Shown one piece after another: positions 1 to 29,639 of a stretch of 64,000 bases of DNA. This DNA comes from Porphyra umbilicalis (Eukaryota > Rhodophyta > Bangiophyceae > Bangiales > Bangiaceae): positions 434,001 through 498,000 of the forward strand of contig KV918761.1 of the NCBI GenBank assembly GCA_002049455.2, written 5' to 3'. The notes under the pieces were generated by a model. The model had not been told where the DNA came from. It saw only the letters and a list, made by a program, of their open reading frames with translations, and did not search any database. The number at the start of each line of letters is the position of its first letter. Positions within the stretch are counted from its first letter, which is position 1. The position numbers were made by a program, and so were the translations under genes.

Positions 1-444
1 AGGAAGCTATTAGCACATAATATGTTCTAATAGCAAGACGTTGTCTTGTCTAGCGCCGACACCGAACGAGGCATGTCATGCGGCAGATTGAGGCACCATC
101 GCCTTGGATGAACCAGACGGAGGCGGCCGGCCGAAGGGGTGCGTCCCGACGTCCGTTTTTTGTTCTCTGCAGCACAGTTGCGCTACCAGGAAGGGGATGA
201 TGGCAGGAAGGAGTGACCGCCGCCGCTGAGCTGGCGGGGCGGATTCGAAGGGGGCACCTACCGAAGAGGCGGCGCGGGGGGACACCACCCGGGTGGCGTG
301 AGCCGCAAAGGGGCGGGGGCGGGAGTGAGGCCCCCCCCCCCCCCGTAAGGGCGCCCTGACGGGAGCTGAGTACCGTGAGCAGCGGGGGTGCGCGGTGCGT
401 GGAGCGAGACGACAGGCGTGTGGGGAGCGGGCGGGCNGTGAGAG

Positions 445-470
445 CACACCCAACAACGTCGGTTGCGAAC
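445..470 (+). repeat. Left arm of a distant perfect inverted repeat
   Basis: This 26-bp stretch beginning CACACCCAACAACG is matched perfectly, in reverse complement, by 22277..22302. Ends of this kind suggest a transposon terminus. No convincing target-site duplication is visible. An ambiguous base (n) lies 8 bp upstream at 437 in a GC-rich stretch. Confidence 0.6.
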
Positions 471-471
471 C

Positions 472-1110
472 GCTTTTGCGTATTATTCGTTAAACGTGGC
501 ATATTTGCCAGTTATGGGCAGAGGTATGGGAAAACCGGTCATCCCACCACACTGTGTGGCGGTATGAAATTCCCGAGAAAAAGTGAGATCTTTTCTTTCA
601 TTATAAATAAGGAGGAGTTATTTCGATTCGACCGCATCCAACTCTGCCGACTATCCTGCAGAAGATTCCTGAAAATGTGTCGAACAATCGCGAAGATTAT
701 CTTCCCAATCCGCTCGAGTCGTCCTGCAGATCGTATTTGGAACTTACCTGGTCCGATCCGACAATCAGACTTGTCTTGGATGGCGGATGGTCCTGAGATC
801 AGACCAGGAACTGTTTTCCAGATTGTTTCCAGGACTGTTCCGCAGCGTATCTCGTGGCATGGCCACTGGACCAAACGGCAAACAAATCCGTGCGCGCGTT
901 GGACCGACTGGTCTAGCGTTCGAACAAGATCCGATCTCCATCCTGTACCCGTAGAATGAGTACGCGGACGGGTTCCAGACTGTCTTCAGAGCCAGGCAAC
1001 AGCCTCGACGAGAGATAACAGTGTCGTCACGCGATAAGCGCATACCCAGGATAAGTTCAGAACTACGTCGGTGCCCTACATGACAGACAAAGCACAGGGA
1101 TAGCTGAGAA
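472..1110. other. No gene seen; lower-GC transposon-like DNA
   Basis: I see no coherent gene here. The sequence is closer to 50% GC and rich in short CAGGA and GATC words, resembling the segments near 14.7-15.0 kb and 16.2-17.2 kb. It is probably transposon or intergenic DNA. Confidence 0.5.
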
Positions 1111-1111
1111 T

Positions 1112-1625
1112 AAGTCCTGCAGATAAAGCAGCAGGACAGCCTTTGGAACGATCCTGTCGACAGTTAGTATTTTTCTTCATCCGATCGCTTGATACTCTAT
1201 CCGGAGATCTACCGCCTGGCATGTCAGCAGGACAGCCTTCGGAACGGCCCTGTCGACAGTTAGTATTTTTATTCATCCGATCGCTTCCTGCATTTTCTGG
1301 AGATCTGCCGCCTGGCATGTCACCAGGACAGCCTTCGGAACGGTCCTGTCGACAGTTATTATTTTTATTCATCAGACTGCTTCCTGCTTTATCTGGAGAT
1401 CTGCCGCCTGGAATGTCACCAGGACAGCCTTCGGAACGGTCCTGTCGACAGTTATTATTTTTATTCATCAGACTGCTTCCTGCTTTATCTGGAGATCTGC
1501 CGCCTGGAATATCGGGAGGACAGCTCTCGGAACGATCCTGTCGACAGTTGTTCTTTTTGTTCATCAGATGTGCCATGATCATGACGCTCATGTCTTCTCC
1601 ACGACCATTCGTCAGAAAAAGCAAG
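1112..1625. repeat. 96-bp tandem satellite, five units
   Basis: The motif GGAACG.TCCTGTCGACAG recurs at 1145, 1241, 1337, 1433 and 1529, an exact 96-bp period. Because 96 is a multiple of three, open frames with 32-residue repeats run through the array on both strands. The middle units are the most alike. The open frames are most simply a by-product of the period, so I do not call a gene. Confidence 0.9.
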
Positions 1626-1895
1626 GAAGATTATGTCAGAAAAAACAAGGCAGATTATGCCGGAAAAATGGATGGAAAAACGACAGAAACGAGGAAAAAA
1701 GGGACATGCATGGACAAAAAGACATAGAGGTCAAGAAAATGGGAGAAACAGACGACTCTGGATACCACAGAGGCCAAGAAAACGGCAGCCACAACAGGTC
1801 ACAGATCGTGTTCGCCTTCGTCGGCATGGAGCAGTCGTCCGTGTCAGCGTGGTGGATCATATGAAACTCGCTTCAAGCAGACCGATAGGAGTGAG

Positions 1896-2462
1896 TTAGT
1901 CCGGTTCCTCGTCTGAGAGATCAACATCTCCAGCCTTGAGGTCCTTCAACTCATCCCGCATGCACCGCACAACGCCCTTGCGAGCCTCGTGGCTCTCTGG
2001 TCGCAAAAATTTGGGGTACTCTGCCATGTCAACGTAGCTTTTCAGACAGGCGGCTCCGGCTGCTCGCACAGAGGTCCACACTTCGCTGGCGTCCAGAAAC
2101 AAAAGCTCAGAAATGATGGCCGCCGCCGCTCCATTCATGTCAAGCGCGCGGACCAACTCGTTGTGGCCGTCGTTCAGTCTCAGTCGGTAACCAACGCCTG
2201 GATTCTCAGCTTGCGCGCCGGCGGCAGAGGCACCCGAAACGGCTGCAGCAAGCACCACGCGTTCCATGGACGCCTCCTGTACGTCATCGTCCATGTAAAC
2301 TCCCAAGGTGCGATACGCGAGCAGCCGAGCAGAGGTGCGACGCCTGTTGTAGCGAGTACGAAGACCCTTCTTCAGAGCCACTTTCACAGCACGTCGATGG
2401 CCCGACCAGCCACTTGTGGTGTAGTCAATCTGGTTCGCATACTTCTCAACCGCTTTGGTCAT
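1896..2462 (-). CDS. Hypothetical protein, unknown family
   Basis: A minus-strand frame of about 188 residues from the ATG at 2462 to a stop at 1896. It could extend upstream to 2786, but that part looks less protein-like. The sequence is not low-complexity. It has a basic stretch (KVALKKGLRTRYNRRR), alanine-rich helical segments and an acidic tail ending LSDEEPD. I recognise no domain. Its position beside satellite DNA and the JmjC transposon suggests it is the 3' part of a transposon gene, but that is inference only. Confidence 0.35.
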   Translation of the reverse strand: MTKAVEKYANQIDYTTSGWSGHRRAVKVALKKGLRTRYNRRRTSARLLAYRTLGVYMDDDVQEASMERVVLAAAVSGASAAGAQAENPGVGYRLRLNDGHNELVRALDMNGAAAAIISELLFLDASEVWTSVRAAGAACLKSYVDMAEYPKFLRPESHEARKGVVRCMRDELKDLKAGDVDLSDEEPD

Positions 2463-2789
2463 AACTGCTCGGAGAGGGCGAGTACAGTCTCTATTGGGGC
2501 CTTCCAGTTGTCCAGGGGGGGCCAGCCATGAGAGGCAATTGTGTTCGGGCGAGTCGGCGGTGCTTCCATTCGTTCCGGGGCTCACAGTTCCATTGGAAAT
2601 TTTCCTTAACATGGCCTGTGCGTATCGCGAAAAAAGAACACTCAGGTCATCCTGGTACAGCAAAATATGCAACACGTCGACAGCAAGGCACGAGTACGAC
2701 GACGATGTGTACGGGTTAGACACGGTGCGATTCGTGGTACGATAGTAACAGATCGCGGAGCACCTCTCTCTCATACCATGGGCCAAAAG

Positions 2790-3603
2790 ATATCGAGTCT
2801 AGTGGTCAACGTACTCCATGTGCAGTCCAGACACTAGCGAATAGGGCACCACTGACAACTGGGGATGGCGGCGGAGCATCAGGAGCTTCATCAGCCCCGC
2901 TACTCGGCATCACTTCGACGCGCAAGACGCCGTCTCGTTCAACGTTTGTCCGCGCAAAAGCGTCCTGGCGTCTCAGTCCAGGTGTGGGCTCCGCAACCCC
3001 GATAGTACATCAGTCAACGTGTGTCTTTTCCCAAGCGCAACAGAGTCTCAGTGAAAGTAGGTCTCTGTGCAACCGTAGCAGGGCCCCAGTCAACGAGTAG
3101 TACTCTGAGGAGCAGGGAAGAGAGTGCCACGACAACACGTTTGAGATCTGTCCAAGAGAGGACGTACGCACACAGCGCACACAGCGGACCGGTTGGATGC
3201 AGACGGCGCTGGGCGGAGCTGCACCGCAGGTGATCTCCTGAGCAGGCACAGGTATCCGCAGGTGATCTCCTAAGCAGGCACAGGTATCCTGGAAAAGCTG
3301 GATACAGCGCGACGGCGACGCAGGCTTCTGATCTGCGGCGGGAGATGAGGTTCGCCATGACCATAAATGTACGTATTTCCCTTTGCGCGTAGTATTTATC
3401 ACGAAGATTAGAAGCACACGTTGGTGCAAGGAGCCCATATGCTCTAGTCGAGCGGGCCGGTCGGGCGAGGCCGAGGATCCCGTACGTGCTGCATGCGTTA
3501 AGGTCGTACATTTCTGTTGTCGACGATGACCAGTACTTGATTTCACGCGCGTAATTGTTTGTGCATTGACTTACAATACTGTTGGAGATTGCGCAGCTTC
3601 CAA
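2790..3603. other. No gene seen; contains a 32-bp duplication
   Basis: No coherent coding region is visible. A 32-bp direct duplication starting CAGGTGATCTCCT occupies 3227..3258 and 3259..3290. Short overlapping minus-strand frames between 3010 and 3546 show no family features. Confidence 0.5.
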
Positions 3604-3800
3604 TTCACCGGGCCGCGGCCGACGGGTGATCTCAGATCGGACGCCGCGCCCTCCACGCCGCGCCCAGATCGGGGTTCCGCACGTATCCGGTGCGGGACGG
3701 GTTCACCCGGCCGCGGCCGACGGGTGATCTCAGATCGAACGCCGCACCCTCCACGCCGTGCCTAGATCGGGGTACCGCATGTATCCGGTGTGAGACGGGG
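3604..3800. repeat. 98-bp tandem duplication
   Basis: Two adjacent copies begin at CCGCGGCCGACGGGTGATCT (near 3613 and 3711), 98 bp apart. They differ at several positions, so the duplication is not recent. It is followed at 3820-3960 by looser repeats of a GCCACGCC..GTCG.GGCACGC word. It lies just upstream of the JmjC transposon's plus-strand coding region. Confidence 0.75.
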
Positions 3801-4230
3801 CGAGAACGGCGTCCCAGGCACACGCGCGGCTGCCCCGGCCACGCCAGGTCGTGGCACGCTCCCCACGGACTGCCACGCCCGGTCGCGGCACGCACAGTAC
3901 CCTCTGGCGAGCACAGTCGCGGCATGCACTGTATCCAGGGACGGTCACGCCCAGTCTCCGCCACCGACCAGCGCCGTCGCACTCGTGCCGTCACCGTGTC
4001 TGCACCACCACTCCTTCTCCTCCACGACTCATTTCTCCATCCCCTCCTCGCTTGTTTTTCTTTCCCCCTTCTCCATCCCCGTTCGTTGTTGCGCCCCCCG
4101 CTCCCCCCTTTCCCCCCTTTGTTTTTTTTTGGGCGCACCCGTGAGGAGGGAGGCCCGCTACCCCACCGGAGGGTGCGGGCCAGGCCGCGACCGACCGCCC
4201 CTACGGGTGATCGGGTGTCCGTGAAGCCGC

Positions 4231-4640
4231 GGGCTGTGTCCCCCTTGTTGGGGCCACCCGCTGGTATTTTGGAGTGGCCGTCACGCCGGGTGGGCGGTCT
4301 TCACTGTGTTTTCTCACTCGTCACCCCGCCGGTGGGTGCTTGTGGGACCGTTACCAATCGCCCATTAGGGCGAGTGGGACTGGGTGGTGCCGCGGGCTGT
4401 GTCCCTTTTCTGGGACCAACCGCTGGCTGTGCACGTCGCCGGCACGCGAGCCGGGCCGGCTTGACTGTTCGATTTTCGCTCGCCACCCCGCCGGTGGGTG
4501 CGTGCGTAACTGGTGCCGATTGCCCACGCGGGCGATCGCGCTGTTGTGGTACCGCGGACTGTGTCCCTCTATCTGGGGCCAACCGCTGGGATTTACGAGT
4601 GGCCGCCACGCCGGGTGGGCGGTCTTCTTTGAGAATTTCG
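4231..4640. repeat. 163-bp tandem repeat, about 2.5 units
   Basis: The word GGGCTGTGTCCC or its variant recurs at 4231, 4394 and 4556. Each unit also carries CACCCCGCCGGTGGGTGC and CGCCGGGTGGGCGGTCTTC. The array ends about 30 bp before the first plausible ATG (4670) of the transposon's plus-strand gene. It may be promoter or subterminal sequence of the element, which is inference. Confidence 0.8.
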
Positions 4641-4669
4641 GTTTGTCTCTGTCCTCGTGACAGCTGACT

Positions 4670-6406
4670 ATGGATGAGCACGATGCCCCAGAGCCCCTTG
4701 GGCCTATTCCGGGCGAATTGAGTCGCAACCAGCGTCGTCAAGTGGCGCGGCCCGGAAACGGGCGGAGGCCATGACTGCTGAAGCTGCTCGGGTGGCTGAG
4801 CAAGCCGCCCGGGCTGTCAATGCGGCGCGTGCGGTCGAACGAGGTGCGGTTGCGGTGGCGCGACGGGCCGAGCAAACTGCGGCACCGGCCCCATTGGCTC
4901 CCCTCGGCACCGGTCGCGAAATTGCGCCCGTGGCAGGTCGTGGCCGTGTTCGAGGCCGCGGCGGCGGTCGCGAGAGAGGCCGCGGCAGGGGCGACGCGGG
5001 CCCCAATCGACTCGGCGGGCACTCACACGCGGTTCGACGCGGGGATGGTGGCGGATCGCGGCTCGAATCGGCTGCTGACAGTGCCTCAGCCGCTGTCGGG
5101 GACATCAGCCCTCACCAGGCCTGAGCGGCAGCGGTCGGGTGGGCGCGTGCGGCGCGACGCCCACGCCACGCAATCGCCAGCCGGCTTTCCGGCCCACCCG
5201 GTCGTATGGGCCGGCACCCGGTGGCGACCGGGCCCAGTCTGCATCGGAAGTGATCGCCATCATCAACGATGGGCGGCGAGTTTTGACTGGTCGAGTGGGC
5301 GGGCTTACAGCCTCGCAGCTGCGGATGCTTCTTCGGCCTTGGAACTCGCGGGACCTGACTATCTTCCGAGCCTCGAACGGATGCAGATCCTGAGCCAGTG
5401 CCGTGGGGGCTGTGGCGACGTGGAGGCCATTGATTCGCTAATGGCTTCAGCTGTAAGGATATTGCAGAACGACGGCGGTGGTCCGCCGAGTCCTGCCGAC
5501 ACTACGGCCGCAAGCTTCCTTGTGAGGCAGGCTCTGGCGTCTCACGCATGCAAGGGCCAGTGCTTTGGGGGGGTGAAGCGCTCCCTCCCTCTTGCTTCCC
5601 GCCCAGCCCCGTCGCCCGCCCCATCTGCCGCCCTGCCTCCTGCTCCGATCCTCAACGCTAGAGCCTTGCCTCGTGCAACCCCCGCCAATGCACCGGCTGC
5701 GTCGAGCACGCGCCGGCGGCCGCCCGGGCGGCCACTCCCGCCTCCTGCGAAGCGCCTCCGCCGCACGACCAGCCACGATGGGGACCCGCAGTCGGTCGCA
5801 ACTGTAACAACTTTTGCGCCGCCAATGCCGCGTGGTGCGCCGTCTTTGCCAATGGCGTCTGGAGCAAGCGATGGCCTGAACGCTCTGCCGGGAGCAGTGG
5901 AACCTGTCGTGCCGCTGTTTTTCTTTCCGGCGCGCGCCGAAAGGCGGCTCCAGCTGTCAACAGCGGATATCGGGTCGCTGGCAGAGGGCGAGGACATGTC
6001 CAAGCGCATGATGGATGGCATGCTGCTGTGGCTTTTATACTGGGCTGACAGCGGTGGAGTGCACGGTGGCCTCCGCGTTCTCTCCGCGCTCGACGCAGAG
6101 GACGTGAAGGACGCCGTGACTGATGACTGCCTGATCGTCAATAGGGCGGCCAAAGTGTTACTTGACCGCCTTGTGTTCGGGGGGGCACGGTCATCATGCC
6201 AGTGTACAGCGGTCGGGGATGGTCGGGCTTGGTGTGCGCCAACTCCATTTGGTCGTTTCCGCCGTCGTGCAGACCGTGATCGGTCGTGATGCAGCTCCCG
6301 TTCATGGCGCCGCAGTTGTGCTGATCAACACCTGCGAGACCAGGGGCGGCGCGCAAGTCGACTTTGACATTGTGGACGGCCTCTTCCGGTCGTTGAGTGC
6401 TGCGAT
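4670..6406 (+). pseudogene. Decayed 5' part of transposon gene, possible Ulp1-like protease
   Basis: Protein-like stretches follow one another in changing frames. They are an ATG start at 4670, an alanine/arginine-rich helical segment (4771-5124), a segment containing NDGRRVLTGRVGGLTASQLR (about 5250-5393), a helical segment (5350-5560), a proline-rich linker, and a region 5900-6190 ending in an AEDVKDAVTDDCLIVN-like stretch. The next pieces (PVYSGRGWSGLVC near 6195-6235, then VVLINTCETRGGAQVDFDIV near 6315-6375) are laid out like the middle of Ulp1/SENP cysteine proteases. A VP...CG stretch lies near 6465-6500. Ulp1 domains are common in CMC, MULE and KDZ-type DNA transposons. At least four frame changes are needed, so this copy is probably inactive. 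The Ulp1 call is tentative. Confidence 0.35.
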
Positions 6407-9205
6407 TTGTCAAACCCACCTACGTACCAGGGACTCACTCGGAATGCGGATGCGTGTCAACGGGTGCCTGCGGATGCGTTTGCCAGTGCGCCGTGTGGCG
6501 ATTCCGGAGGAGAGGTTGCTGACACGGCGGACCACCTCCTGGCACACGTGTCTTTGCTGCATTCGGCCAAACCACAAGCAGCAGCAGACCTGCTACGTCG
6601 TGACAATGGGCCCCAATGGCAAAAGGCCCATGCCCCTCGGCGCTTGCGTGGCCTTGTTCGACGCATCGTGGACGCCCACCGACCCGGTGGAGAGATTTTT
6701 CTTGAGCAGGAGCCCGGCGAGGAGCTGTTGAACGGCTACGATCTCTCGGAGGACGAGGCCGCCGACGGCGAAGAGGCGCTTAAAGACTTGACGGATGACG
6801 AAGACGGTTCCGGTGACAACAGTGCGCATAACGGCAGTCGCAAGGGCGACAGCAGTGGAGGAATAAGACGCAGTCAAGATGGTGACAGTGTCGGGGATGG
6901 CGGTGGTGGGATCGACAATCGCAACGGACGAGGCCCAGCTGACGGCGTCGAAAACGGGTGTCGGACTGATGCGCATCTCGTGCTCGGAGTTTCCCCTCAG
7001 GGGCGTTCGAGAAATGTCCCTCGTGGGGGCATCGACGACGCACGGGGGCCTGGTGGCGGTAATGCTGCTACACACGCTCTTGGAGGCGCTGTGGTTAGTG
7101 TGCACGATCACGATCGACGCAACAATGGTGGATACAGGCGCCACAGGGAAGTGGAGGCACCGCTGGGTGGTGCCGGCGTTGATGCCAGCGCTCGTTCTGG
7201 CGCTGCCGGTGGTGTGGTTGCTCAAGATGGACGCGACAACCGCGGCGGTAATGCAGGTGAGGCACGGGGACTCGTCGGTGCAGGCGTTGATGCACGCGCT
7301 CGTGCTGGTGCTCCCGTTGGTGTGGCTGCTCGAGATGGGCGCGACAATGGTGGTGGTTGTGCAGCGGCGGTACGCGGACTTGAAGGTGCACGCATTGATG
7401 CACGCGCTAGTGGTCGTGGTGCCGATGTTGTGTTTGCTCAAGCTGGGCGCGACGATGGTGCTGGTGGTGCAGCGGCGGTACGCGGGCTCGCAGATGCACG
7501 CGCTGATGCACGTGCAGGTGCTGGAGGTGCCAATGATGTGGTTGCTCAAGATGGACCCGGCGATTGCGGTGGTGGTGGAGTGGCGGTACCCAGACTTGGT
7601 GGTGCAGCCATTCATGCACGTGCTCGTGCTGGTGCTCCCGTTGGTGTGGTTGCTCAAGATGGACGCGACGATGGTGGCGATGGTGCAGCGGCGGTTCGTG
7701 GACTTGGTCGTGCACGCGATGATGCACACGCTCGTGCTGGTGCTCCCGTTGGTGTGGTTGCTCAAGATGAACCCGACGATGGTGGTGGTGTTGGAGTGGC
7801 GGTACGCGGACTTGGTGATGCACACATTGGTGCACGCGTTCGTGGTCGTGCTGCCAATGATGTGGTTGCTCAAGATGGACGCAACGATGGTGGTGGTGCT
7901 GCAGTGGAGGTACAGAGACTTGGTGGTGCGGCTATTCATGCACGTGCTCGTGCTGGTGCTCCCGTTGGTGTGATTGCTCAAGATAGACGCGACGATGGTG
8001 GCGATGGTGCAGCGGCGGTTCGTGGACTTGGTCATGCACGCGATGATGCACACGCTCGTGCTGGTGCTTCCGTTGGTGTGGTTGCTCAATATGGACCCGA
8101 CGATGGTGGTGGTGTTGGAGTGGCGGTACGCGGACTTGGTGATGCACACATTGGTGCACGCGGTCGTGGTCGTGGTGCCGATGATGTGGTTGCTCAAGAT
8201 GGACGCGACGATGGTGGCGATGGTGCAGCGGCAGTACGCGGAATTGGTGGTGCAAGCGTTCATGCACACGCTCGTGCTCGTGGTGCCGATGATGTGGTTG
8301 CTCATGATAAACGCGGCGATGGTCGCGATGGTGCAGAAGCGGTACCCAGACTGGGTGGTGCAGCCATTCATGCACGTGCTCCTGCTGGTGCTCCCGTTGG
8401 TGTGGTTGCTCAAGATGGACGCGACGATGGTGGCGATGGTGCAGCGGCGGTTCGTGGACTTGGTCGTGCACGCGATGATGCACACGCTCGTGCTGGTGCT
8501 CCCGTTGGTGTGGTTGCTCAAGATGAACCCGACGATGGTGGTGGTGTTGGAGTGGCGGTACGCGGACTTGGTGATGCACACATTGGTGCACGCGTTCGTG
8601 GTCGTGCTGCCAATGATGTGGTTGCTCAAGATGGACGCAACGATGGTGGTGGTGCTGCAGTGGAGGTACAGAGACTTGGTGGTGCAGCCGTTCATGCACG
8701 TGCTCGTGCTGGTGCTCCAGTTGGTGTGGTTGCTCAAGATGGTCGTGGCAATCTTGGAGGTGATGCAGTGGATGCACGGAGACGTGGTTGTGCAAGCTTT
8801 GATGCACGTGCTCGTGCTAGTGCCCCCGATGGTGTGATTGCCCAAGGTGTACACCACAAGAATGGCGGTTGCGCAGTGGAGGTACCCGGACTTGATCATG
8901 CAGCCATTGATGCACGCGCTCGTGTTGGTGCTGCGGTTGGTGTTGTCGCCCAAGAGGGACCCGAACATGGTGCCGGTGATGGAGTGGAGGCACGGGGAAT
9001 CGTTGGTGCAGCCGTTGACGCCCGCGCTCGTGGTGGTGCTCTCGTTGGTGTTGTTGCACAAGACAGACGCGACAATGGTGGCGGTGGTGAAGTGCAATCA
9101 CAAGGACGCGCTCGTGCTGCCGTTCACGCACGCGCTCGTGGTGGTGCTGCCGTTAGTATGGTGACTCGAGATCGACCCGACACTCGTGGTGAAGGACATG
9201 GCTAA
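6407..9205 (+). CDS. Acidic plus 36-residue tandem-repeat segment of the transposon protein
   Basis: An open frame of about 930 residues, in the same frame as the JmjC coding region that follows. The first about 220 residues include an acidic stretch (LSEDEAADGEEALKDLTDDE) and a glycine/serine-rich part. From about 7050 it consists of a degenerate 36-residue repeat with consensus VVAQDGR.DGG..AAAVRGL and then ARAGAPVG. A TAA at 9203..9205 stops the frame inside the repeat array, which continues unchanged beyond it into the JmjC ORF. The simplest reading is one long protein (repeat linker plus JmjC) with a single nonsense change in this copy. The other frames and the minus strand are also open here because the 108-bp period is a multiple of three. 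Confidence 0.5.
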   Translation: MSNPPTYQGLTRNADACQRVPADAFASAPCGDSGGEVADTADHLLAHVSLLHSAKPQAAADLLRRDNGPQWQKAHAPRRLRGLVRRIVDAHRPGGEIFLEQEPGEELLNGYDLSEDEAADGEEALKDLTDDEDGSGDNSAHNGSRKGDSSGGIRRSQDGDSVGDGGGGIDNRNGRGPADGVENGCRTDAHLVLGVSPQGRSRNVPRGGIDDARGPGGGNAATHALGGAVVSVHDHDRRNNGGYRRHREVEAPLGGAGVDASARSGAAGGVVAQDGRDNRGGNAGEARGLVGAGVDARARAGAPVGVAARDGRDNGGGCAAAVRGLEGARIDARASGRGADVVFAQAGRDDGAGGAAAVRGLADARADARAGAGGANDVVAQDGPGDCGGGGVAVPRLGGAAIHARARAGAPVGVVAQDGRDDGGDGAAAVRGLGRARDDAHARAGAPVGVVAQDEPDDGGGVGVAVRGLGDAHIGARVRGRAANDVVAQDGRNDGGGAAVEVQRLGGAAIHARARAGAPVGVIAQDRRDDGGDGAAAVRGLGHARDDAHARAGASVGVVAQYGPDDGGGVGVAVRGLGDAHIGARGRGRGADDVVAQDGRDDGGDGAAAVRGIGGASVHAHARARGADDVVAHDKRGDGRDGAEAVPRLGGAAIHARAPAGAPVGVVAQDGRDDGGDGAAAVRGLGRARDDAHARAGAPVGVVAQDEPDDGGGVGVAVRGLGDAHIGARVRGRAANDVVAQDGRNDGGGAAVEVQRLGGAAVHARARAGAPVGVVAQDGRGNLGGDAVDARRRGCASFDARARASAPDGVIAQGVHHKNGGCAVEVPGLDHAAIDARARVGAAVGVVAQEGPEHGAGDGVEARGIVGAAVDARARGGALVGVVAQDRRDNGGGGEVQSQGRARAAVHARARGGAAVSMVTRDRPDTRGEGHG

Positions 9206-9400
9206 GAAAGCGGAGGCGGCGACGGTGGTCGGGTGCTTGAGCAAGACGGGCGTCGTGCCGCCGCCGCCGACGGCGGTGGTGATTTGCATGCACGAGGACT
9301 CACTGGCGATGCCGCCGATGCACAGGTTCTCGGTGGCGCTGCCGTTGGTATGTTACCTCATGTTCGACGCGACGATGGCGGTGCACGGCGTAACCCCGTT
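7050..9400 (+). repeat. 108-bp coding tandem repeat with higher-order structure
   Basis: The word GTTGCTCAAGATGGACGCGA or a variant recurs at 7541, 7649, 7757 and 7865 and onward, exactly 108 bp apart. About 20 units fit the span. Units near 7649-7970 reappear almost unchanged near 8405-8730, 756 bp (seven monomers) later, and partly near 7973 (three monomers later). This indicates unequal exchange of multi-unit blocks. Confidence 0.9.
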
Positions 9401-11590
9401 GAAGGGCCTAGCACAGGAGTCCGTGGCATTGCCGAAGGACCATGGTGCGGTGCCGCCGCGGGAGTCGGTCTTTTGGTCGGTGATCCTTATTTGCTGTGCG
9501 AGGCTCTCGCCTCACGGCGCGATGATCAGTTGTCTAGCTTTGATGCAGATGACATAAACGTCTTGGCCGGCACTCTCCCCTCAAACCACTTGGCCAGAGG
9601 AATTGAAGGAGTCCCTAGTGCAACGCTCGCACAGATACAGAGCATACAGAAGCCTGGGGCTGCCGGAAAAGACCCTACATCGCCAAAAAAACTCCACGAG
9701 CACATGCCGGGTACCAGCCGAGAAGGTCCTGACGCCACTGTTCGCAGGAAAGTTGCCATGGATGCGGGCGGGGAGCCCAAGTACGCACACGGTGGTGACA
9801 AAGTGTGTGCGCAAATGCTTGGGTCTCCGACGCGACGTGCCAAGGATTTCTACTCCGTTCCTGTGACTGAGTTACACTCTGTTCCTGAGTTGGGATTGCA
9901 CGGACTGATTCGGTCGAATAGTGCATCATTCAGGCAATTTGGCGCGCACGTGTTCCGAATAGTAGCACGCGAGAGGCGCCCCGTCTCTAGTCGACTGCCA
10001 AAGCGACATTCCGGGGACAAGCTCAGAGTGCGCGTTCAAACCTTTCCGCAGTTCCCTACCATTATGTGCGACTCATTCTCTGGTAGGCCTGCGCCTGACC
10101 TGAGCGTCAAGCGCAAAGACTTGAGGGCACAGCTGCCATCAGAAAGGGAAAAGCGAATGTCAGGTGCGGAACTCAGAGCCAAAGTCGGTGAGAGTGCAAA
10201 CGCCCTTCAAGCCGCATACCGGGACTTCGGTGTGACGCGCTTCCTTGCCAGTGTGAACGATCCCAGCGCGACTTGGGTGCGACGAGTCACAGCTGCCGGC
10301 AAAGAGAGGGCCGTGATGGGTGGAGCCCTTGATCCCGTAGATGTGTACTATCTTTCAGACATGTCACCTGACAACAAGGATGGGTGCAGTAGGAGTCTCG
10401 GCGACCCTGCGTGTACTGCCCATGCCGAGTCTTGCCCGCCTGGTCAGCGATTTGAGAACCCTCGCACATTGAATCACCACACTATGCTCGGTGCAGCGTC
10501 CACATACGAAGGTATCAACACGAGCTTGCTGTACGTTGGGTCCCAAGGCTCTCACTTTAGCTGGCACGTTGAGGACAGTCTGTTGCAATCATGTTCGTAC
10601 TTGCAGGCCGGAGCGAGCAAGTTTTGGTTGTTCATTCCGGCGTCGGAACGCCCTCTTGCTGAGCGCGTGATGCGAGAGCTTATGGACCCGGTTGTATTGG
10701 GAGCGGCCGGAGGTGACGTATGGACAGTTCTTGCTGTAAAGGCGTGCTTGTGGCCTGCAACGCTCTTTCTGGCTCGTGGTGTACGAGTTGGATTCCACAA
10801 GATGGAGCCTGGGGACTTTGTTGTCACGGGTTACGGCGTCCTTCACAGCGGCTTCAATGGGGGACCAAACGTGGCCTCCGCCGTGAACACTGCCTGCACA
10901 GCCTGGTTTTCTTACGCGATGGAACACGCAGAGCACTGGCGCAATAAGCTGACTATCCACATCCCTTTTGAAAAGCTGCTGGTGCTTGCGGCCCAGAAGC
11001 TCGCTGCTGGGGAATGGTGGTGCGGCGACGCGAAGACGTATCAGGCGTTAGAGCCAGAACAGTTCCAACGGGATATCAAAGTCATGGAGTCTTACCTAGG
11101 AAAGTACCTTGACGATACGCAGGCTTTTTTGGAGATGGGACCAGACACAGACTGGGCTGGCAGGAAGGCCACCATCGTCGACATGATGCGGGCGTCCATG
11201 GGCGTGACGAAGTTTATCGTGCACAACTACATACAGCCGAAAGGGACACCCTTGGTGCTGCCCAATGAGGATACGGGATCAGTCACAGACTATTCAGTTG
11301 ATGGCACGTCTTGCCCTCATTGCGGTGTAGTCGTTTGGCTCTCGGTCATTGTCTGCCCAACGTGCATTGAACAGCTAGGAGAAGAAGCTGGACCTACTGC
11401 TCCTCTGTGCTGTCTGCGCTGCGCACCGACCATGTTCGGGAGCGAGCACGATCGACTTCGCCAGGGCTCTCCGGCGCAGAGGCGTCTCATGGGTTGCCAT
11501 GCTCCGGTGGTGGTGCAGCGGCTCTCGAACAGCTCCGTGTACCTCTTGGTGGATGAATTGAAGAAGCTGTCAGTGGGACGTTCTGCATGA
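9206..11590 (+). CDS. JmjC-domain (KDM4-like) oxygenase carried by a DNA transposon
   Basis: The frame is open from 9206. A separate ATG exists at 9350 (746 residues to the stop at 11590), but the repeat array upstream shares the frame, so it is probably the C-terminal part of a larger protein. The JmjC fold is clear. HVED near 10565 supplies the His-x-Glu iron ligands. The following YLQAGASKFWLFIP aligns with the KDM4 stretch whose lysine binds 2-oxoglutarate. GVLHSGFNGG near 10835-10865 supplies the second His. The KDM4 asparagine after the HxE motif is serine here. A cluster CPHC...CPTC...CCLRC near 11310-11430 resembles a zinc ribbon. JmjC enzymes of this type oxidatively demethylate histone lysines. 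With its triad intact, activity is plausible but unproven. It runs convergently with the transposase at 11845-14268, with 254 bp between them. Confidence 0.8.
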   Translation, partial: ESGGGDGGRVLEQDGRRAAAADGGGDLHARGLTGDAADAQVLGGAAVGMLPHVRRDDGGARRNPVEGPSTGVRGIAEGPWCGAAAGVGLLVGDPYLLCEALASRRDDQLSSFDADDINVLAGTLPSNHLARGIEGVPSATLAQIQSIQKPGAAGKDPTSPKKLHEHMPGTSREGPDATVRRKVAMDAGGEPKYAHGGDKVCAQMLGSPTRRAKDFYSVPVTELHSVPELGLHGLIRSNSASFRQFGAHVFRIVARERRPVSSRLPKRHSGDKLRVRVQTFPQFPTIMCDSFSGRPAPDLSVKRKDLRAQLPSEREKRMSGAELRAKVGESANALQAAYRDFGVTRFLASVNDPSATWVRRVTAAGKERAVMGGALDPVDVYYLSDMSPDNKDGCSRSLGDPACTAHAESCPPGQRFENPRTLNHHTMLGAASTYEGINTSLLYVGSQGSHFSWHVEDSLLQSCSYLQAGASKFWLFIPASERPLAERVMRELMDPVVLGAAGGDVWTVLAVKACLWPATLFLARGVRVGFHKMEPGDFVVTGYGVLHSGFNGGPNVASAVNTACTAWFSYAMEHAEHWRNKLTIHIPFEKLLVLAAQKLAAGEWWCGDAKTYQALEPEQFQRDIKVMESYLGKYLDDTQAFLEMGPDTDWAGRKATIVDMMRASMGVTKFIVHNYIQPKGTPLVLPNEDTGSVTDYSVDGTSCPHCGVVVWLSVIVCPTCIEQLGEEAGPTAPLCCLRCAPTMFGSEHDRLRQGSPAQRRLMGCHAPVVVQRLSNSSVYLLVDELKKLSVGRSA

Positions 11591-11844
11591 GCGATGTCAT
11601 TTGTGTTTTTTCTATGCTTCTTGCTTTTGGCTTCTCCATGCGCACTATGTATGTTTCTTCGTACTGCCTCACGTTGCTGGCTGTCACACATAGGCTGTTG
11701 TAATATTCATCAACTTCTTCTCATTTGCTCTTGAGTCCATCGTAGGTCCCTTGCTCGTTATTTTTGGTGCAGTACAGTACTCAAACCATGAGCCGAGTCC
11801 GACGTACACGTCAGAGAGGAATAAAATACACAAGTCACTCTCAG

Positions 11845-14268
11845 TCACCCGCTCTTAAAGTGGAAGCCCGAACGTTTGGTAAACATGACATTACTCTGCC
11901 CACAAGGAAGCACAAATGCCAATTGGCCGACGCGGTCGGCAGTGACAATGGTAACATCAGCTGCTACGTCAACAGCGACGACAGCCGGCTCGCCCAAGAC
12001 GGAGAAGGCCATGTGCGGTACACGCCATGGCTCGTAGGCAACGTAAAGCTCGCCGTTGACGGTTGCAATGGAGTGGACGCGACCAAAGCGCTTGTGGTTC
12101 ATGTCACTCGTTCCAGAGCCATGCTCTTCAGGTACAATGTCAACAATGGACACTGTGGACCCTTCTGCGATAATAATCGATCGCTCTTTCCTCGCGGCCT
12201 TCCGCCAAAGTGTGAGGGCCGCGTTGGGCGCATGGCGCTTCCAAACATCTTCTTTGGGCCCCAAGAGCGTGCGCACAGCGTGCATGGCACGCCAAGCATC
12301 ATTGACTGTGGCCGCATTAACTCTGCTCGGACCCAGGCTGTAGAAAGAGACGGCCTTCAGCTTCTTGCCTCGTCTACCAATGAGCCATGAAGCGGGTATT
12401 CCATATTCGCCTGGCAAAGATAGCACTCGGGAGTACTGTTCTGTGTCTCTCCACCTCTGTATGGCATACTCAGCGGGGTTCCAGCTATTGCTCTGGCTCA
12501 CCTCACGCTTTGCCAGCTGGTGAAACCTCTCAAAAATGAGCTCACATATGGCCGGCCCGAGCTGCACCAGCGGGAGAGTGCGATGCAAGAGCTCTAGCAA
12601 ACGGTGCACAGATGGTCGCTCCCACGACCCGTTGAATGGCACCAGCCGACGCAGTTCAATCATCAGACTCTCGCCCAAGACTTGGAGCTCAGCGACAGTG
12701 GGCCTCGTTCGCACGGCCTCCTCGCCATCCGAGGCAGCTGTTGGGAGGTAGAAAAGTGCGGTAGAGAACCGTCGGAGGGCATGAAGAGCACTGAGTGCGG
12801 CAACTGCGTGTGGCGGTGTGGCTGTAGGATGGACCAAGTACTGCAGCACAGTCGGGCCCACCGTGAGCAGCACTGCATAGTCTGACATTGAGAGGGTTGT
12901 GCCACCCATCTTTTCGGGTTCGAACGACGACAAGACTGTGTGTGTCGGGACGTCTTCCACCACGCGCTTGAGAAGTGCGTCCGGGTTGGCTCCTGGTGGC
13001 AAATAAAACAGTGGACGAACAGAAAACGCACGATCCTTGATGCTGAGAGATGTGTATGCTCCATAGTAGCCCTCCAGGCTTCCCCGTCGACGCTTGTATA
13101 CGTTGAATTCATCACCGTACAATGAAACGTATAGCGTGTAGGGGTCTTTTTCCGGGAGAGCACTCTCCGGGGGCTCTGCCGCCTGCGAGAGCTCCAGTGG
13201 CCGCAGTGACAATAAGGCGGACCACGAGTCTTGTTCCATCATGGCTGATGCTTTCACGACAAGAACCAGTACGCCACCGGACCGCGTGAACCGCAAAGTA
13301 AACCTGCGTTCTTCGGTGAAGCATGGTGCCCAGCTCGCGGGCGGTACGAAATCAGGAAAAGCAGAAAACTGCGCGAGGGAGCCCCCAAGTCGAAGCGCGC
13401 TCTGGGGAGCATACCTGGACGCGGATGTGGTAAAGCTGCCGTCACAAGCAATGGCTGTGCTCATCAGACTGGCCTTGAACGTCGTAGCTGCATCAAGAGA
13501 GACCTGGGCGATACATCCAATGTCGTACCTGTACCGGTCTCGGAACAGGACGTTCTTCACGTTATACCTCGAGGGATCCCTGGCCACTACAGTCTGATAA
13601 AACTCTGCAGGCCGCTCAGCTGTGCCCATGCACGATTCCCCTTTACTGTGGAAAAGAGCAGCCGTCTTGGGATCTCCAAAGTCCCGCTTTACGTGCTCAG
13701 AGAAAGGAATGTACGACACTATTGCGTCAGGCAGTTATCGCAAGGCTCTTCCTTTGCCAACGGGAAGCTGACGTGTGGTCGTTTCTCTTCGCAGTGGTAT
13801 GGCAGACTTCAGCATGTGCTTGCGCAACTGCCGTAAGCGCCACCTCGAGGGCCACTCCACCTGCGGGATAAAGGAGTTCTCGGCCTCTCGCATCATGTCA
13901 TACTGTCTGAGCGTCACGCGCACTCGCCCATAGAGGTACCCAAAACATAAGAACTCGCGACGTGTTGCAAACCCCTCATCAGGGTGCTCAGATGCACTCG
14001 AAAATTCTGTGTCGTCTGATGGGTATGCGTCTGACTCAGATTCTGATGACAGGGCGACGTCGTCGTACTCCTCTATATGGGACACTCGTGGTATCGCTCT
14101 GCCAGGGACAGTTTGGGGTCTGCCTGCCGAGCCCTCACCGTCGCCTTCACGGCCGACATCATGCTCTGCAGAATCCGAGTTCGTGGGATGTGCTTGCAAA
14201 TGAATCAGGTTGGCATCAGTGAGATTGAAAAACGCAGAACCTCGTGGACCGCGCCTGCGACGCTTCAT
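11845..14268 (-). pseudogene. CACTA/Plavaka-like DNA transposase, one in-frame stop
   Basis: One frame runs from the ATG at 14268 (MKRRRRGPRGSAFFNL) to a stop at 11845, interrupted by a single TAA at 13735..13737. The frame is the same on both sides, so the two long ORFs are halves of one protein of about 807 residues. The N-terminal part is basic, then acidic/serine-rich. The second half has LYVSLYGDEFNVYKRRRGSL (near residue 380), an aspartate-containing block like that in the transposase core of Plavaka and related CMC elements. Further on, HRLLELLHRTLPL and LIFERFHQLAKREVSQSN (near residue 580) match the helical block near the end of such transposases. A KDZ-type assignment is possible. 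Catalytic residues cannot be assigned with confidence by eye. Confidence 0.6.
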
Positions 14269-14316
14269 GGCGACCAGGAAAGGGGGCCCGTGCGTGCGTA
14301 GCACAGTATCCGACAC

Positions 14317-15275
14317 TGCATGTTAATACCACATACGCACGCCCGTAGGAGCACCAAGAGGGACACAGCCGAGGACCTGTTTGACGGGGATACACAGCGA
14401 GATCAAGGGCCCAGGGCACAGGACGCCGGCATGATGCGACTGCGGTGTGGCACCTCAAGCATCGACGGAGGCTGACCTCGGTGTACCTATGGCGAGGGAG
14501 GCTCTGATCTGCTGATCGGCACGAGTTGGAGCTGCTCGGCAGATTCCCGGCTCGGACACTCTGCACCGATCCCCCTTTCTGACAATAGGAAAGGTACGAA
14601 GGACACGTCCTTCAAGGTGGACCACCGGCGGACGGCTTCCGTGCGCTCATTGGCCAGCCATTTCTAGCCCCCCCAGCGACCAAGGCGCCGATTGGTTTTC
14701 CATTTGATCCGGCAGACCATCTGCGGAACAGTCCTCCAGTGATCCTCGTTTGATCTCAAGGATGATCCTCAGTAAAGTTCGAACGCCACTGTCGGGACTG
14801 TTTCCAGGACGGTCTTGCGTCATAGATCTCGCCCTATCCTATTCTACGTTTGAGATTAGGCCAGGACGGTCCACCGGAAAACCCCGGGGAGTTCCTCCAC
14901 TTGATCTGATGATCACTGGGGGACGATCCCAATCTCGCGTCACGCCGACCTCCAGAATCGATGTGGCTGCGTGAGCAAATCGGGCCGCAGGCCTATACTG
15001 TGAATTCCTCGATTTTGTGACCAGGATTAAATAAGGACGAGCATCCGTCTCCCTGTGCAACGTCGCGAACCAGATCTGCGAACCGAGCTACTGGTGGCCC
15101 AGATATAAGTCCAACCGGATAATATGGCGCTGGTTCGCAGGAGGTTCGCATTTTTCCATCGGCCGACCATACCACTGGCGTTTGGGCAGACGTTTGTGCA
15201 TTTCCGAACGTTTTGCGAACCGAATCTGTCTACAATTGTGTCTAAACGGGGGTCAAACACCCAAATCGGGACCTA
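14317..15275. other. No gene seen
   Basis: Non-coding sequence with repeated GATC and CAGGA-type words and several TCTGCGAACC-like words (near 15075, 15128 and 15212). The latter also occur beside the right inverted-repeat arm at 22.27 kb. It could be the flank or end of the JmjC transposon, but no terminal repeat could be fixed. Confidence 0.4.
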
Positions 15276-15381
15276 GGGTTGAAGGTGGGGTTCATGTCCA
15301 GATCTGAGGTGGGGTTCAGATGTGGATAAGGGGAGTTGGGGGGACTTACAAGTACGATATTCCAGGCACGTGCGTGCAACA

Positions 15382-16062
15382 CCCTGGCCTTCAGGGCGGT
15401 GGCGCGCTCGGCGACGCGTCGACACCGGGCACGCCGGCTGGCTCCATGGCCGCGAGCACGCCCGGGGGCACGTACAGCCACGTTGCCGTGGCGGGGGGGG
15501 CGTGGGCCGGTGAAAGGGGTGCCGCCACAGCCACCGCAGAGGGGGCGGCCCGCCGGCGTCGCGCAACGCCCACGGGCACCCCCGTCACCCCACCGCGCAG
15601 CGCATCTGCGCGCGGCGGGCGGGGCGGCCGACACAGCGCACGGGTGGGCGGGTGGAATCGACCGCCGCGCGACGGGGCGCCTCTAACAGCGCCGGTAGAT
15701 GGCGTCAGCAACCGCCGACGCGCCGCCGCAACAGAAGCCGGCGCGCAGGCACGATCACCCGCGGGTTATCTTCAGCGCTTCGAACCCCAGAAGTCGCTGC
15801 GCGTGGTCGCCGCGCGCAACTGGGGGTGGTGGGGGGGTCAGGGGGGCGCGCGCCGTCCGGGCCCTGTGACCCTTGCGGCAGGGCAGTCCCTCTCAGCAAC
15901 GTAACTCTATTCGCTTTTAACGTCATCGCGACCCTTCCAACGCTGACACGCCCTGAGGACACAAATGCAGACTGCCACCTCTGAAACGGAGAGCAAGTCC
16001 TGTGATCTAAGTATATGTGTGCATCACTACACTTCGAGAGCACCCTGTCCTAAAGGCCAGGG
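15382..16062 (+). mobile_element. MITE-like element, copy 1
   Basis: It begins CCCTGGCCTTCAGG and ends in the inverted form CCTAAAGGCCAGGG, giving imperfect terminal repeats of about 20 bp. An inverted copy lies at 52594..53200. The two share the left GC-rich part, a CCCGCGGGT.ATC stretch, the CAGACTGCC.CCTCTGA stretch and the GTGCATCACTACA stretch. Similarity also extends about 20 bp outside the left end (15358-15376). It has no gene of its own. The ORFs across it are GC-driven. Confidence 0.75.
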
Positions 16063-17438
16063 AACTATACACTGCGGGTCGGTATGTCATCGCCGGGATA
16101 GTTCTAAATTTGCCGGCTTGTAAATCTATAACGAGTAGACGCGAAAGAATGTTTTGAGATAGCCATGCAAAGCTTTTGTGAGATGGCCTCAGCATGATTC
16201 GGAGGATCATGTGCACGACAGTTCCGTGGATCAGCGAAAATCCTACATTTCGGATTGCCTGATTCTCGAGTGACCTCTGTGATTCGGCAGTTCATCACTA
16301 CAGTTCTGGACTCGTTCAACGGATCATCTTCGGGACTGACTCTGGGATCGTTCCAGAAGCAGTGTCATCCTGACCCACAGATCATCTCGGGGACTGTCAT
16401 TCGAAAAAAAGGTGAGGAATTGTTCAACAGATAGTCTGACTGCCTCTTCCGCAAACAAAATGTCTGCCTATACCGTCAACAGTGTGAACAAAATCCTTTT
16501 GACACTCTCTCCGCTTAGACCAGTGCCCATCGTGGAATCTGACATATCGCTCATGCGCTTGAGTCTGTGGTGCGAGTGCTTCTGATACGTATTGAGTCGG
16601 GGGATTGCAAGTATTGAACCGGGGGATTGCGAGTTCGGGACCTGCTGAGTTAGGACGAAAGGGGACGAGATTGCCACTGAGCTGAGGACGAATTTACTGC
16701 GCGTGTGGGAGACCCAATCATTCATAAATCCGGACTGGGTGCGTCCGGGACTTCACGGTATTCTCGATGTGCGAGCCGACGCATGTTTACCCAGTTCCCA
16801 TCCCCTCTGCGCCGGGAAACAGCGTGTCGGTCGCACGACTACCAAGTCACATTGAGGCTCCCTCTGCACACGTTTCGTGGCCCAGGAGCGACGCCCCATG
16901 GGCAGGTCTTGCTCTCTGATCGGGTTCGGCAGACCCTCCCCACGACGTCACTCGAAGTAGTCCAGGCTATCATCTACGATCGAGTCCTTGAGACAGGAAT
17001 CTAGATCAATCCTGCGCACTCGTTCACTCAATCTATGACGACGGTCCCCAGGATGATTGTACTCCGACGCCAGGACAGTCCTGAGCACGATCCTCAGGAT
17101 GATCTTACTCCCACTTCAAGACAGTTCTCAGCACGATACGCAGAACGATCAGAACCAGCGAATCGGAATGATCTTTCATGAGCATGGGGCAGCAACTTCG
17201 CCGGACAATTGCCGAATCTGCAGGTGCTGGTGTGAGGATGATTCCCACTGAATATCGGTGCAGATGGTCTTCGAGCACTTCTGAACTCCACTGCGGGCTT
17301 TGTCTCCAAGATCTACAAAAAGTGGGCATAATTTGATCGCATGATCAATGTGCGACAGTTCTGCGAACCGTCGGTGGGCGAGTTCGAATCTGGCAGTTCT
17401 CAGTTTTAAGGAATCGGGGACAAAACGCTGTGTAGTTG
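16063..17438. other. No gene seen
   Basis: Lower-GC sequence with scattered GATC, CAGGAC and TTCAACGGATCATC-like words and no coherent frame. It resembles 0.5-1.1 kb and 14.7-15.0 kb. It is probably old transposon DNA. Confidence 0.45.
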
Positions 17439-18823
17439 CCACCGTCTAGTAAGATGCAGTGGGGTGGGGTTCAGTTCGTGCGCACTGTCAGCCCCAAAGC
17501 TGGGGTGGCGCCAAAAAAGCGCGCGCGCGCCCATATCGACAGCCCTAGCGATCGCCCCCCTTCACCCACCCCCGCCGCCGACCGCCGCGCCGCCACGCGC
17601 AGCGTCGTCGTCCCCCCCCCCCCCCCCCACCCCGTCGTCCGCTATCACTCTCTGCATTTCTTTCCCGCTCCTGCTGTGGTCCATGTGGCAACCCCCGTCA
17701 TTTTGCGGGCACCCATTGAAGCCCCCCTCACGGTCCGCTGCCACCTGCGCCGCCCCCGCCACGGCGACCGTCGCGGTGCCGTGCGGCGGCCGCGGGAGCG
17801 ACGGTCGCCGACATCGACGCCATTGGTGATCCCCCCCCCTGTTGCCGTCGCGGGTTGCGACAGCTGTCGTGGTCGTTATGTTGTCCCGTCAGTGTTCTAT
17901 TACGTCTGTCAATGTGGCCGACCCTCTGCCCACGCTGCCTCGCTCACAGATGGTTTCGCTCTCCTGCCCCAGTAGACGAGGTGCGTGTTTTTCTGTTGTC
18001 TTGGGGATTCTCTGCCTTTTTTTCTGCAAGAATGTGCCAAACGGTGTATGGTTGTGATCGTCCTGCTCACCTTGTTTGCTGCTATGTTTCGATGTGTTCT
18101 TCTTTCTTCTTCTTCACTTGTGGTACCTGGTACATTTGTACTGCGCGGTTTATGTGCCTCTTTGCTGTCTGACGCTGTCGATGGAGAGACGGGGCACCCC
18201 ACGAGGGCCCCGCTCCTTTTGATAGCTCGTTCTTGACGATTGCAGCGCTAGTGTGGGTGGGTGCCGGAATAGCTACCTGCTTTGACCTTATAGCGTATGT
18301 TTTCTTTCCACCGCCATGACCATGCACCTTTTCGACCCGCAGGTGCCTCTATCTGCCCACACTCTGCTTCTATTTTTGTTTTCGTGCTCAGGACACACAT
18401 GCTATATGGCCTCGGCCACGCTCAGGAGCACGGGGCTGGGGCGCAGGTTGCATTCTCGGCTACCCCTCCCCCTCCTGGCACATCTGCTACTGTCTTCGAT
18501 GAATGGCTTTCAAGACGAGTAGGGTAAGTCGTTTTTAATGCAGTGGCGGATGTTCCTCTCTGTCCTGCCCTTTCGTGCACTCACACTCACGCGCAAGTCT
18601 CAAGGAACGTTGGCCTCGCCCACGACTTTCCCCCCCCCGGGACTCATCCCCCTCCCCCCGTGGCTCATTGACTTGGTCGTGGAGATGCATTCGCCTCGGT
18701 CCAGTATTGACTCCGTCTGACGCGCGTTCCCTTGCCGAGCGCGCCTTCTCTGGTACGATGCTTACAGTGACTGCGAGGAGCGAGGAACTGAACCCCACCC
18801 CACCCCATCTTACTGTACGGTGG
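17439..18823. mobile_element. 1.4-kb element with 39-bp terminal inverted repeats
   Basis: Positions 17439..17477 (starting CCACCGTCTAGTAAGATG) and 18785..18823 are inverted copies with 4 mismatches in 39 bp. Inside is a plus-strand frame (17454-17975) with a proline-rich start and a cysteine cluster CDSCRGRYVVPSVFYYVCQC. A T-rich stretch with intron-like features follows (17880-18530). It may be an internally deleted transposon keeping the first exon of a zinc-binding protein. I do not recognise the family. Confidence 0.6.
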
Positions 18824-18918
18824 AAGTTCGATCAAGTGCATGTGGCGAAGTATCTCCAATTCCCCACATCAGACATGAACTCCACCTCGGATCTGGACCT
18901 GAACCCCACCTTCAACCC

Positions 18919-19640
18919 GTGCCCGCCCAAATCGGGACGATCGCAGATAAACACACGTTGCGTTGACGATCGCACAGGCGTCTCGAGATCTGATATTCAT
19001 GAGCATGCGGTCGCGAGTGGCCGCAGATTCCGCTCGAGGCGCAGGCGGCGCTCATTGCCGGGCCCTGTCGGGGGGGGGGCCGGCGGGACACCGTTCTTTC
19101 CAGGTGGACATCCGCCGCCACGCGCGATTCTGGGTCGGCCCCCCGACGGCTGAACGGTTTGATTAGGGGGGGGGGGCCGCCTAGAGGCACTGTCGCATGG
19201 GTTGGCGCGCGGCCCCAATGCGGTCGTCCAGCGGAATTCTTTGGCGGGGTGGCCCCCAGTTGACGCGCCGCTGGTGCCACCAACCTGCGCTGAGAGCCAA
19301 TCGGGGAGGGGCTCCGCGCAGCGCAACATTGTGTGGCCGGCATGTGACTGTCCGCGCGCAGCCGCACCCGCGGGAATGGGCCGTGCATGGGGGTTTTCAG
19401 GCAGCGCCGCGCAGCCCACATTATTGGTCACGCGGCCGCCCGGGACCTGCCAATTGCGCTTTCTGTGGGGGGGGGGGCGCGGAGCTACAGATCGACGCGG
19501 TGCGCCCGCCACCAGCGGCGCGTCGATCACACCGTCGTCGTCGGGGGGAGCGCGATTGCGGCACCGCCGTCGTCGGCGTCGTCCACCCCGTTTCCCCGTT
19601 CTGCCCGTCTCCTTCGCCGTCGCAGCGGCCGTGAGCGGCC
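18919..19640. other. No gene seen; G-rich runs
   Basis: GC-rich sequence with long G runs near 19071, 19168 and 19470. Frames are open on both strands for compositional reasons and none shows family features. It may include the left end of the neighbouring Harbinger-like element. Confidence 0.4.
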
Positions 19641-22276: not shown

Positions 22277-22302
22277 GTTCGCAACCGACGTTGTTGGGTG
22301 TG
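22277..22302 (-). repeat. Right arm of the 26-bp inverted repeat
   Basis: Perfect reverse complement of 445..470. It is preceded by AAACGGTTCGCAGATC, a variant of the GCGAACC word that also follows the left arm. Confidence 0.6.
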
Positions 22303-29268: not shown

Positions 29269-29639
29269 GGCGGTCGCCGTCAGCACAAGCGCCGCGACAA
29301 AGGCACGCCACCATCGCCACACCTCCAAACTCAAACGATGGTACAGCGATTGCAGGGCAGAGCAGCCACAGGTTGGCAGCCTCTGTGTACTCTCCACACC
29401 GCGAGCACGTCTCCGTCGCGACCGCGACCTGTGCGCCGCCGACACACCACGTCCAACACGGGCGCGTCACGACCACCCCATCTGGCGGTCGACTGTCTAC
29501 CCGGCCGCTGTGCACACAGCGCGTGCCCCCGCCGCCAACGTTGTTAGACAGCCCCAATCCCAACGCGTCGTGCGGTGCCGAGCACACGTCTGTGCTGCCA
29601 CACCAGGAAGAGGTTGCCGACAGCGGAAGCGTAACGCGC

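Follow-up and report, generated by a model that had tools for sequence, protein, structure and literature searches.

Can a gene for a histone-demethylase-like enzyme travel as the cargo of a DNA transposon? The question is raised by a 64,000-nucleotide stretch of the Porphyra umbilicalis genome (assembly GCA_002049455.2, contig KV918761.1, forward-strand positions 434,001 to 498,000; hereafter the window, in whose coordinates all positions are given), where a JmjC gene and a transposase-like gene lie side by side. A first-pass annotation of this DNA had described the pair as a transposon carrying its own KDM4-like JmjC oxygenase. We found that one DNA-transposon-like element with a JmjC gene as cargo is the best single reading of the locus, unproven and tentative, at slightly below an even chance. 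That this cargo is a histone-lysine demethylase erasing repressive histone marks on the element itself is possible and, on balance, doubtful. A single element gains support because inverted repeats enclose both genes, and because motif clusters on the right side, the tight convergent packing of the genes and their shared base composition point the same way.

The JmjC gene

The JmjC gene is real: the domain lies in an intact open frame, in which the first in-frame ATG is at 9350 and the next at 9704. The 9206-11590 frame matched the Pfam profile PF02373 (JmjC) with an E-value of 9e-15 and 55.6 bits, the curated cut-off being 24 bits, and phmmer recovered 58 distinct PDB sequences at E<=0.01, deposited under the names KDM4, KDM5/JARID1, JMJ13, JMJ14, RPH1, JARID2 and similar. 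The best of these was Arabidopsis JMJ13 (E 5.7e-20), followed by 2w2i, a human-type 2-oxoglutarate oxygenase (E 3.4e-17), and then by KDM4D (8.4e-17); the bit scores were 74 for JMJ13, 65 for 2w2i, 63-64 for KDM4D, 60 for JMJ14, 58 for KDM5A and 52 for KDM4A. In agreement with the first-pass annotation, the protein keeps both its HVE...H ligands and its cofactor lysine when aligned with JMJ13 (34% identity over 169 columns); we take the HxE...H positions to be the Fe ligands and the lysine to be the cofactor residue. Catalytic activity is plausible, unassured. The label "KDM4-like" seems a fair one for the catalytic core and fits less well beyond it, JMJ13 being the top match, KDM5 being close, and JmjN not being found: Pfam gave no JmjN match, neither to the complete protein (E<=1) nor to 9530-10480 (E<=10). 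There was likewise no Pfam match to PHD or Tudor in the protein, and matches to a C-terminal zinc ribbon were sub-threshold (Pfam E 0.008-0.02; PDB E 0.23 and up).

Hosts commonly have JmjC genes of their own. The gene could be such a host demethylase gene, or a recent paralogue of one, around which transposons have landed; this would be in line with the intact frame and with the fact that a second copy was not seen. We consider this improbable, given the G+C content at third codon positions (GC3), which is 0.60 (0.55-0.63) in the JmjC gene versus 0.80 in an NB-ARC-WD40 gene and 0.89 in a CNNM-like gene, the two likely host genes; JmjN, PHD and Tudor were not matched, and the gene is located between inverted repeats. 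The Pfam matches of the CNNM-like gene fall below the curated cut-offs. The UBC open reading frame (ORF) has a GC3 of 0.88.

The convergent transposase-like gene

The two genes stand tail to tail, the JmjC stop codon ending at 11590 and the minus-strand ORF at 11845, so that the 254-bp convergent layout described earlier is confirmed. The minus-strand frame is open at 11848-13734 and 13738-14322 (629 and 195 codons), and one in-frame TAA (13735-13737) splits the gene. The first-pass annotation had held that everything except the JmjC part has decayed; for the transposase-like gene this is true of the one TAA, and the frame is otherwise open. The ratio of observed to expected CpG is 0.82-1.07 from the left arm through the right arm at 15259, therefore heavy CpG decay is not indicated. 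By eye, 11845-14283 (minus strand) resembles a DDE transposase, CACTA/Plavaka-like, an assignment supported by no library. Single-sequence AlphaFold models, with mean pLDDT (predicted local distance difference test) values of 32.9 and 32.6, were too poor for use.

The genes are also alike in composition: G+C at the first, second and third codon positions is 0.61/0.48/0.60 in the JmjC gene (9521-11587) and 0.60/0.48/0.61 in the transposase-like gene, whose 182-codon N-terminal part has a GC3 of 0.57. ORF300 (1899-2798, minus strand) has these values too (0.60/0.48/0.61), and all three differ in this from the two likely host genes. This shared composition is suggestive, and it argues against a host gene more than it argues for one element.

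The junction bears on another explanation, in which the locus consists of separate neighbouring elements, one with the JmjC gene, a GC-rich 5' part and a tandem array, and a second with the transposase-like gene, the repeats framing a pile-up of nested transposons. A sharp composition step at 3604, a probable nested insertion, outer ends that lack a target-site duplication (TSD) and several further repeats in the window speak for it. Against it stand the 254-bp convergent spacing and the like composition of both genes; in addition, no arm falls within 11591-11844 among the longest 25 of the 168 inverted pairs found in 1-20000, or in a further list of 24 inverted pairs. We regard separate elements as unlikely.

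Candidate ends of the proposed element

The outer inverted repeats are real. The extended pair (441-470 and 22277-22306) is 30 bp long and 97% identical, and the 18-base core, with up to 3 mismatches allowed, has two sites only, both of them in the outer repeats (0.12 expected). Among exact inverted matches whose sites are separated by 5 kb or more, the longest (23 bp) belongs to this pair, compared to at most 18 bp in shuffled sequences (n=40); this count was made under a low-complexity filter, and the shuffles were filtered alike. The outer termini read CAC..GTG, as in EnSpm, and enclose both genes. The motif GCGAAC is part of the outer repeat and forms two clusters, one on the transposase-like side and one beside the outer right end, which are separated by the nested insertion and a GC-rich stretch (Table 1); shuffles reached a maximum of three motifs per 200 bp (n=40) versus five observed. 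CACTA/EnSpm elements have subterminal repeats at both ends. The left arm (471-1225) shares 75 near-identical 10-mers with 14291-15230, the highest count of 131 sub-windows (mean of the other 130, 41; standard deviation, 11; next highest, 68).

A second, inner pair also encloses both genes. The bases TGTGTCCCCCTTGTTG at 4235 agree at 14 of 16 positions with the reverse complement of the sequence that ends at 14367, with GC outside both, i.e., a TGT..ACA pair with a 2-bp (GC) duplication. Within the window, TGTGTCCC is found five times on both strands, in the units at 4235, 4398 and 4560, at the right end and at 48022. Three degenerate tandem units of about 163 bp, each with TGTGTCCC or a near copy, occupy 4153-4627. 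According to passages of PMC12730594, PlavakaA termini are TGT..ACA with a 2-bp TSD, and those of PlavakaB are CATCA..TGATG with a TSD of 2-3 bp. In 300 shuffles (left end sought in 1600-9200, right end in 14290-15272, TSD of 2-3 bp), a TGT pair with up to 2 mismatches arose in 10, and in none when the TSD was added; up to 3 mismatches with a TSD were seen in 11 of the 300, and any of the three end types examined in 1. A CATCA..TGATG pair (6192/14436) has no TSD and was equalled in 7 of the 300 shuffles. The limits drawn by the first-pass annotation coincide with neither pair: its left limit, 3604, is a rise in G+C at which no end is shown, and on the right it stops about 100 bp short of the inner end.

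Table 1. Features of the locus in window coordinates
Feature	Position	Strand	Remarks
Outer left inverted repeat, CACACCCAACAACGTCGGTTGCGAAC	445-470	+	26 bp, exact match
ORF300	1899-2798	-	300 codons; G+C at codon positions 1/2/3 0.60/0.48/0.61; inside outer pair, outside inner pair
GC-rich block	3604-7100		G+C 0.66; opens with 98-bp tandem duplication
Inner left candidate end, TGTGTCCC...	4235-4250	+	first of three tandem units of about 163 bp
108-bp tandem array	7166-9181		about 18.7 copies; both strands open
JmjC protein gene	9206-11590	+	794 codons, uninterrupted frame
JmjC domain	10529-10888	+	residues 442-561; HVE...H ligands and cofactor Lys
Cysteine-rich C-terminal stretch	11303-11425	+	possible zinc ribbon; likeness to C5HC2 finger by eye
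Intergenic spacer	11591-11844		254 bp; G+C 0.44, AT-richer; AATAAA (+) at 11820
Transposase-like protein, C-terminal part	11845-13734	-	629 codons and stop; identity by motif reading only
Transposase-like protein, N-terminal part	13738-14283	-	starts at Met 14283; frame shared with C-terminal part
Inner right candidate end, ...GGGACACA	14352-14367	-	84 bp upstream of transposase-like ATG
GCGAAC cluster	about 15065-15221		five motifs; transposase-like side
Probable nested insertion	15273-18925		43-bp inverted arms, 15276-15318 and 18876-18918
GC-rich stretch, probably nested DNA	about 18939-21700		Harbinger-like fragment by eye, 19703-20340
GCGAAC cluster	about 22091-22282		four motifs; beside outer right end
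Outer right inverted repeat	22277-22302	-	partner of 445-470

Evidence weighing against a single element

A number of observations weigh against one transposon with an active demethylase as cargo, and the first group concerns the ends. The outer and inner pairs compete as element ends. No TSD of 2-9 bp was found at the outer repeats (an N stands at 437), and the 3-bp TSD of the CACTA type is absent, the flanks being GAG and GTC. Few GCGAAC motifs occur in the left arm, and in the reverse 10-mer test (query 14331-15270) the left arm fell outside the top 12 sub-windows. The inner pair is short, its shuffle test was post hoc, the pair having already been seen, and on the left it falls within the GC-rich block, away from the 3604 edge. 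Moreover, a search for 16-base ends (the 5 leading bases exact, at most 3 mismatches) returned 288 pairs versus 173 in a complement-only control, and pairs with one mismatch occur elsewhere, at 82/18357, 831/14735 and 4232/14370. The inner pair leaves the odds of a single element unchanged, given its competition with the outer pair and the post hoc nature of its test.

The second group concerns the genes. The CACTA/Plavaka-like transposase of the first-pass annotation was not borne out: the profile matches of this gene were weak and unrelated, namely Phage_tail_C (E 0.06-0.12) and DUF6026 (0.24) in Pfam searched to E 10, VirB9 in NCBIfam (E 0.0075) and an unnamed family in PHROGs (E 0.011), and nothing was found in PDB to E 10. 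EnSpm and Plavaka transposases carry a C(2)C and an H(3-4)H motif according to passages of PMC12730594, and the 629-residue part lacks both. As for the JmjC protein, the SINY segment of JMJ13 reads SCSY, so that the pocket Asn is replaced by Ser. This Asn is presumably a 2-oxoglutarate contact, equivalent to Asn198 of KDM4A. The other long unnamed ORFs of the window have a GC3 of 0.70-0.88. Shared composition is no more than suggestive, since G+C is low beyond the proposed element as well (22310-24600, 0.556).

Finally, the element is known from one copy, and a second copy was not found in contig searches. The proposal of a single element stands on the enclosing repeats, motif clusters, packing and composition, and is weakened by the lack of an outer TSD and of a second copy, by the competition between two pairs of ends and by the putative identity of the transposase.

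Searches for relatives

Peptide patterns matched 6, 1, 9 and 2 stretches of viral contigs and 21 and 7 stretches of genome contigs, and none of these was a relative; it should be noted that this search detects close relatives only. An exact repeat scan of viral contigs gave 0 matches, tblastn against phages and plasmids matched nothing, and Rfam (gathering scores) together with a tRNA scan found nothing. For ORF300, there was no Pfam or PHROG match at E<=1 and no viral-contig relative by peptide pattern.

These searches bear on the possibility that the JmjC gene belongs to an endogenised large DNA virus. Passages of PMC11244446 report giant-virus insertions in Amoebidium that contain KDM4-like JmjC genes, i.e., a precedent for the same enzyme type, and also giant repeats with a flanking Plavaka transposase. 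Here, no viral hallmark gene was recognised, with sub-threshold matches only among the part of the window ORFs searched, and no IMG/VR relative was found by the peptide-pattern search with its restriction to close relatives. We consider a viral origin very improbable.

Upstream block, probable nested insertions and other features

At 3604 the G+C content rises sharply from 0.52 to 0.70, and the block from there to about 7100 may be foreign or a separate insertion. The upstream tandem repeats of the first-pass annotation were confirmed, a 98-bp unit being present twice (3604-3799) and a 108-bp unit 18.7 times. The 108-bp array lies within a 945-codon frame (6368-9202) on one strand and an 834-codon frame (6596-9097) on the other. 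We rejected the idea that the array extends the JmjC protein by a conserved N-terminal part: in that frame, the ratio of nonsynonymous to synonymous differences (pN/pS) is 1.21, with no stops. The remaining sense frames have pN/pS of 1.10 (2 stops) and 0.65 (32 stops), and the antisense frames 1.02 (1 stop), 0.60 (3) and 1.28 (21). The possible Ulp1 protease was dropped too, as Peptidase_C48 was not matched at E<=1 in two upstream frames and the third frame is interrupted by stops. The left arm holds a 96-bp tandem repeat (1129-1569; 4.6 copies, 90% matches).

The probable nested insertion is accompanied by a 13-bp direct repeat, at 15260 and 18926, 3 and 7 bp outside its 43-bp arms. One copy of a dispersed inverted pair (15359-16064 and 52592-53223, 82-84% identical) lies inside this insertion. 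The Harbinger-like fragment at 19703-20340 had no Pfam match to E 10; many GCGGCCGC sites surround it at 19432-21690, and this is probably another nested element. Elsewhere in the window, an 875-codon ORF (24622-27246, minus strand) is transposase-like by eye and has no Pfam or NCBIfam matches, and tandem repeats of 213 bp (29635-30155) and 159 bp (31493-32020) lie within long open frames. The NB-ARC-WD40 gene (42203-47578, minus strand) is an intronless 1792-codon ORF with NB-ARC (1.7e-15) and WD40 (2.3e-44) matches, an NLR-like architecture.

Proposed mode of action

Under the preferred interpretation, the element would comprise the transposase-like gene and, as cargo, a gene for a JmjC oxygenase of the KDM4/JMJ13 type. 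Its ends would be either the outer CAC..GTG pair (445-22302, 21.9 kb, in which case it also contains a third ORF and insertions nested at a later time) or the TGT..ACA repeats of the inner pair (4235-14367, 10.1 kb). The JmjC protein would most likely be an Fe(II)/2-oxoglutarate demethylase that takes repressive histone-lysine marks off the chromatin of the element, and on demethylated chromatin the transposase-like gene would stay expressed. For the tandem array and the cysteine-rich tail, a role in targeting is conceivable.

Comparison with known systems

Among the matches listed from the open-licence PMC literature, there was no report of a DNA transposon with JmjC cargo. The cargo known from transposons includes SET, which adds histone marks, TET/JBP, which oxidises DNA bases, and VANC, which antagonises silencing; a histone demethylase on a DNA transposon, if true, would be the missing eraser, and counter-silencing at the level of histones would become directly testable. 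With JMJ13 and KDM4D the protein has the JmjC core in common, whereas JmjN is not recognisable in it.

The VANDAL elements, in passages of PMC5735166 and PMC10398659, encode the anti-silencing factor VANC; the likeness is in an anti-silencing factor of the element's own, and VANC differs in being a sequence-specific protein instead of an oxygenase. HarbingerS and MuDR families carry a SET histone methyltransferase, as cited in part of PMC12730594, and thus also encode a histone-lysine modifier; however, SET adds methyl groups and JmjC would remove them. In the Amoebidium insertions, as far as described in excerpts of PMC11244446, a KDM4-type JmjC enzyme without PHD and Tudor likewise resides in a genomic parasite, but these are viral insertions with multi-exon genes, whereas here one open frame lies beside a transposase-like gene. 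If our interpretation is true, DNA transposons would offer KDM4-type enzymes another possible way of moving between genomes, in addition to giant viruses.

Passages of PMC12730594 describe fungal DNA transposons of 11 lineages, including Plavaka and EnSpm, that encode TET/JBP dioxygenases, and here, as there, an Fe/2-oxoglutarate dioxygenase gene lies beside a transposase gene (here a transposase-like one), escape from silencing being the function proposed in that source. The inner candidate ends of this locus are similar to the PlavakaA termini given there (TGT..ACA, 2-bp TSD), whereas the TET-carrying Plavaka elements are PlavakaB (CATCA..TGATG), and the transposase class here is putative. 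TET/JBP acts on DNA bases (PMC12730594, in part), in contrast to the histone-demethylase type of JmjC enzyme found in Porphyra. If the two genes do form one unit and the JmjC enzyme is a demethylase, the element would parallel the fungal TET/JBP transposons at the level of histones.

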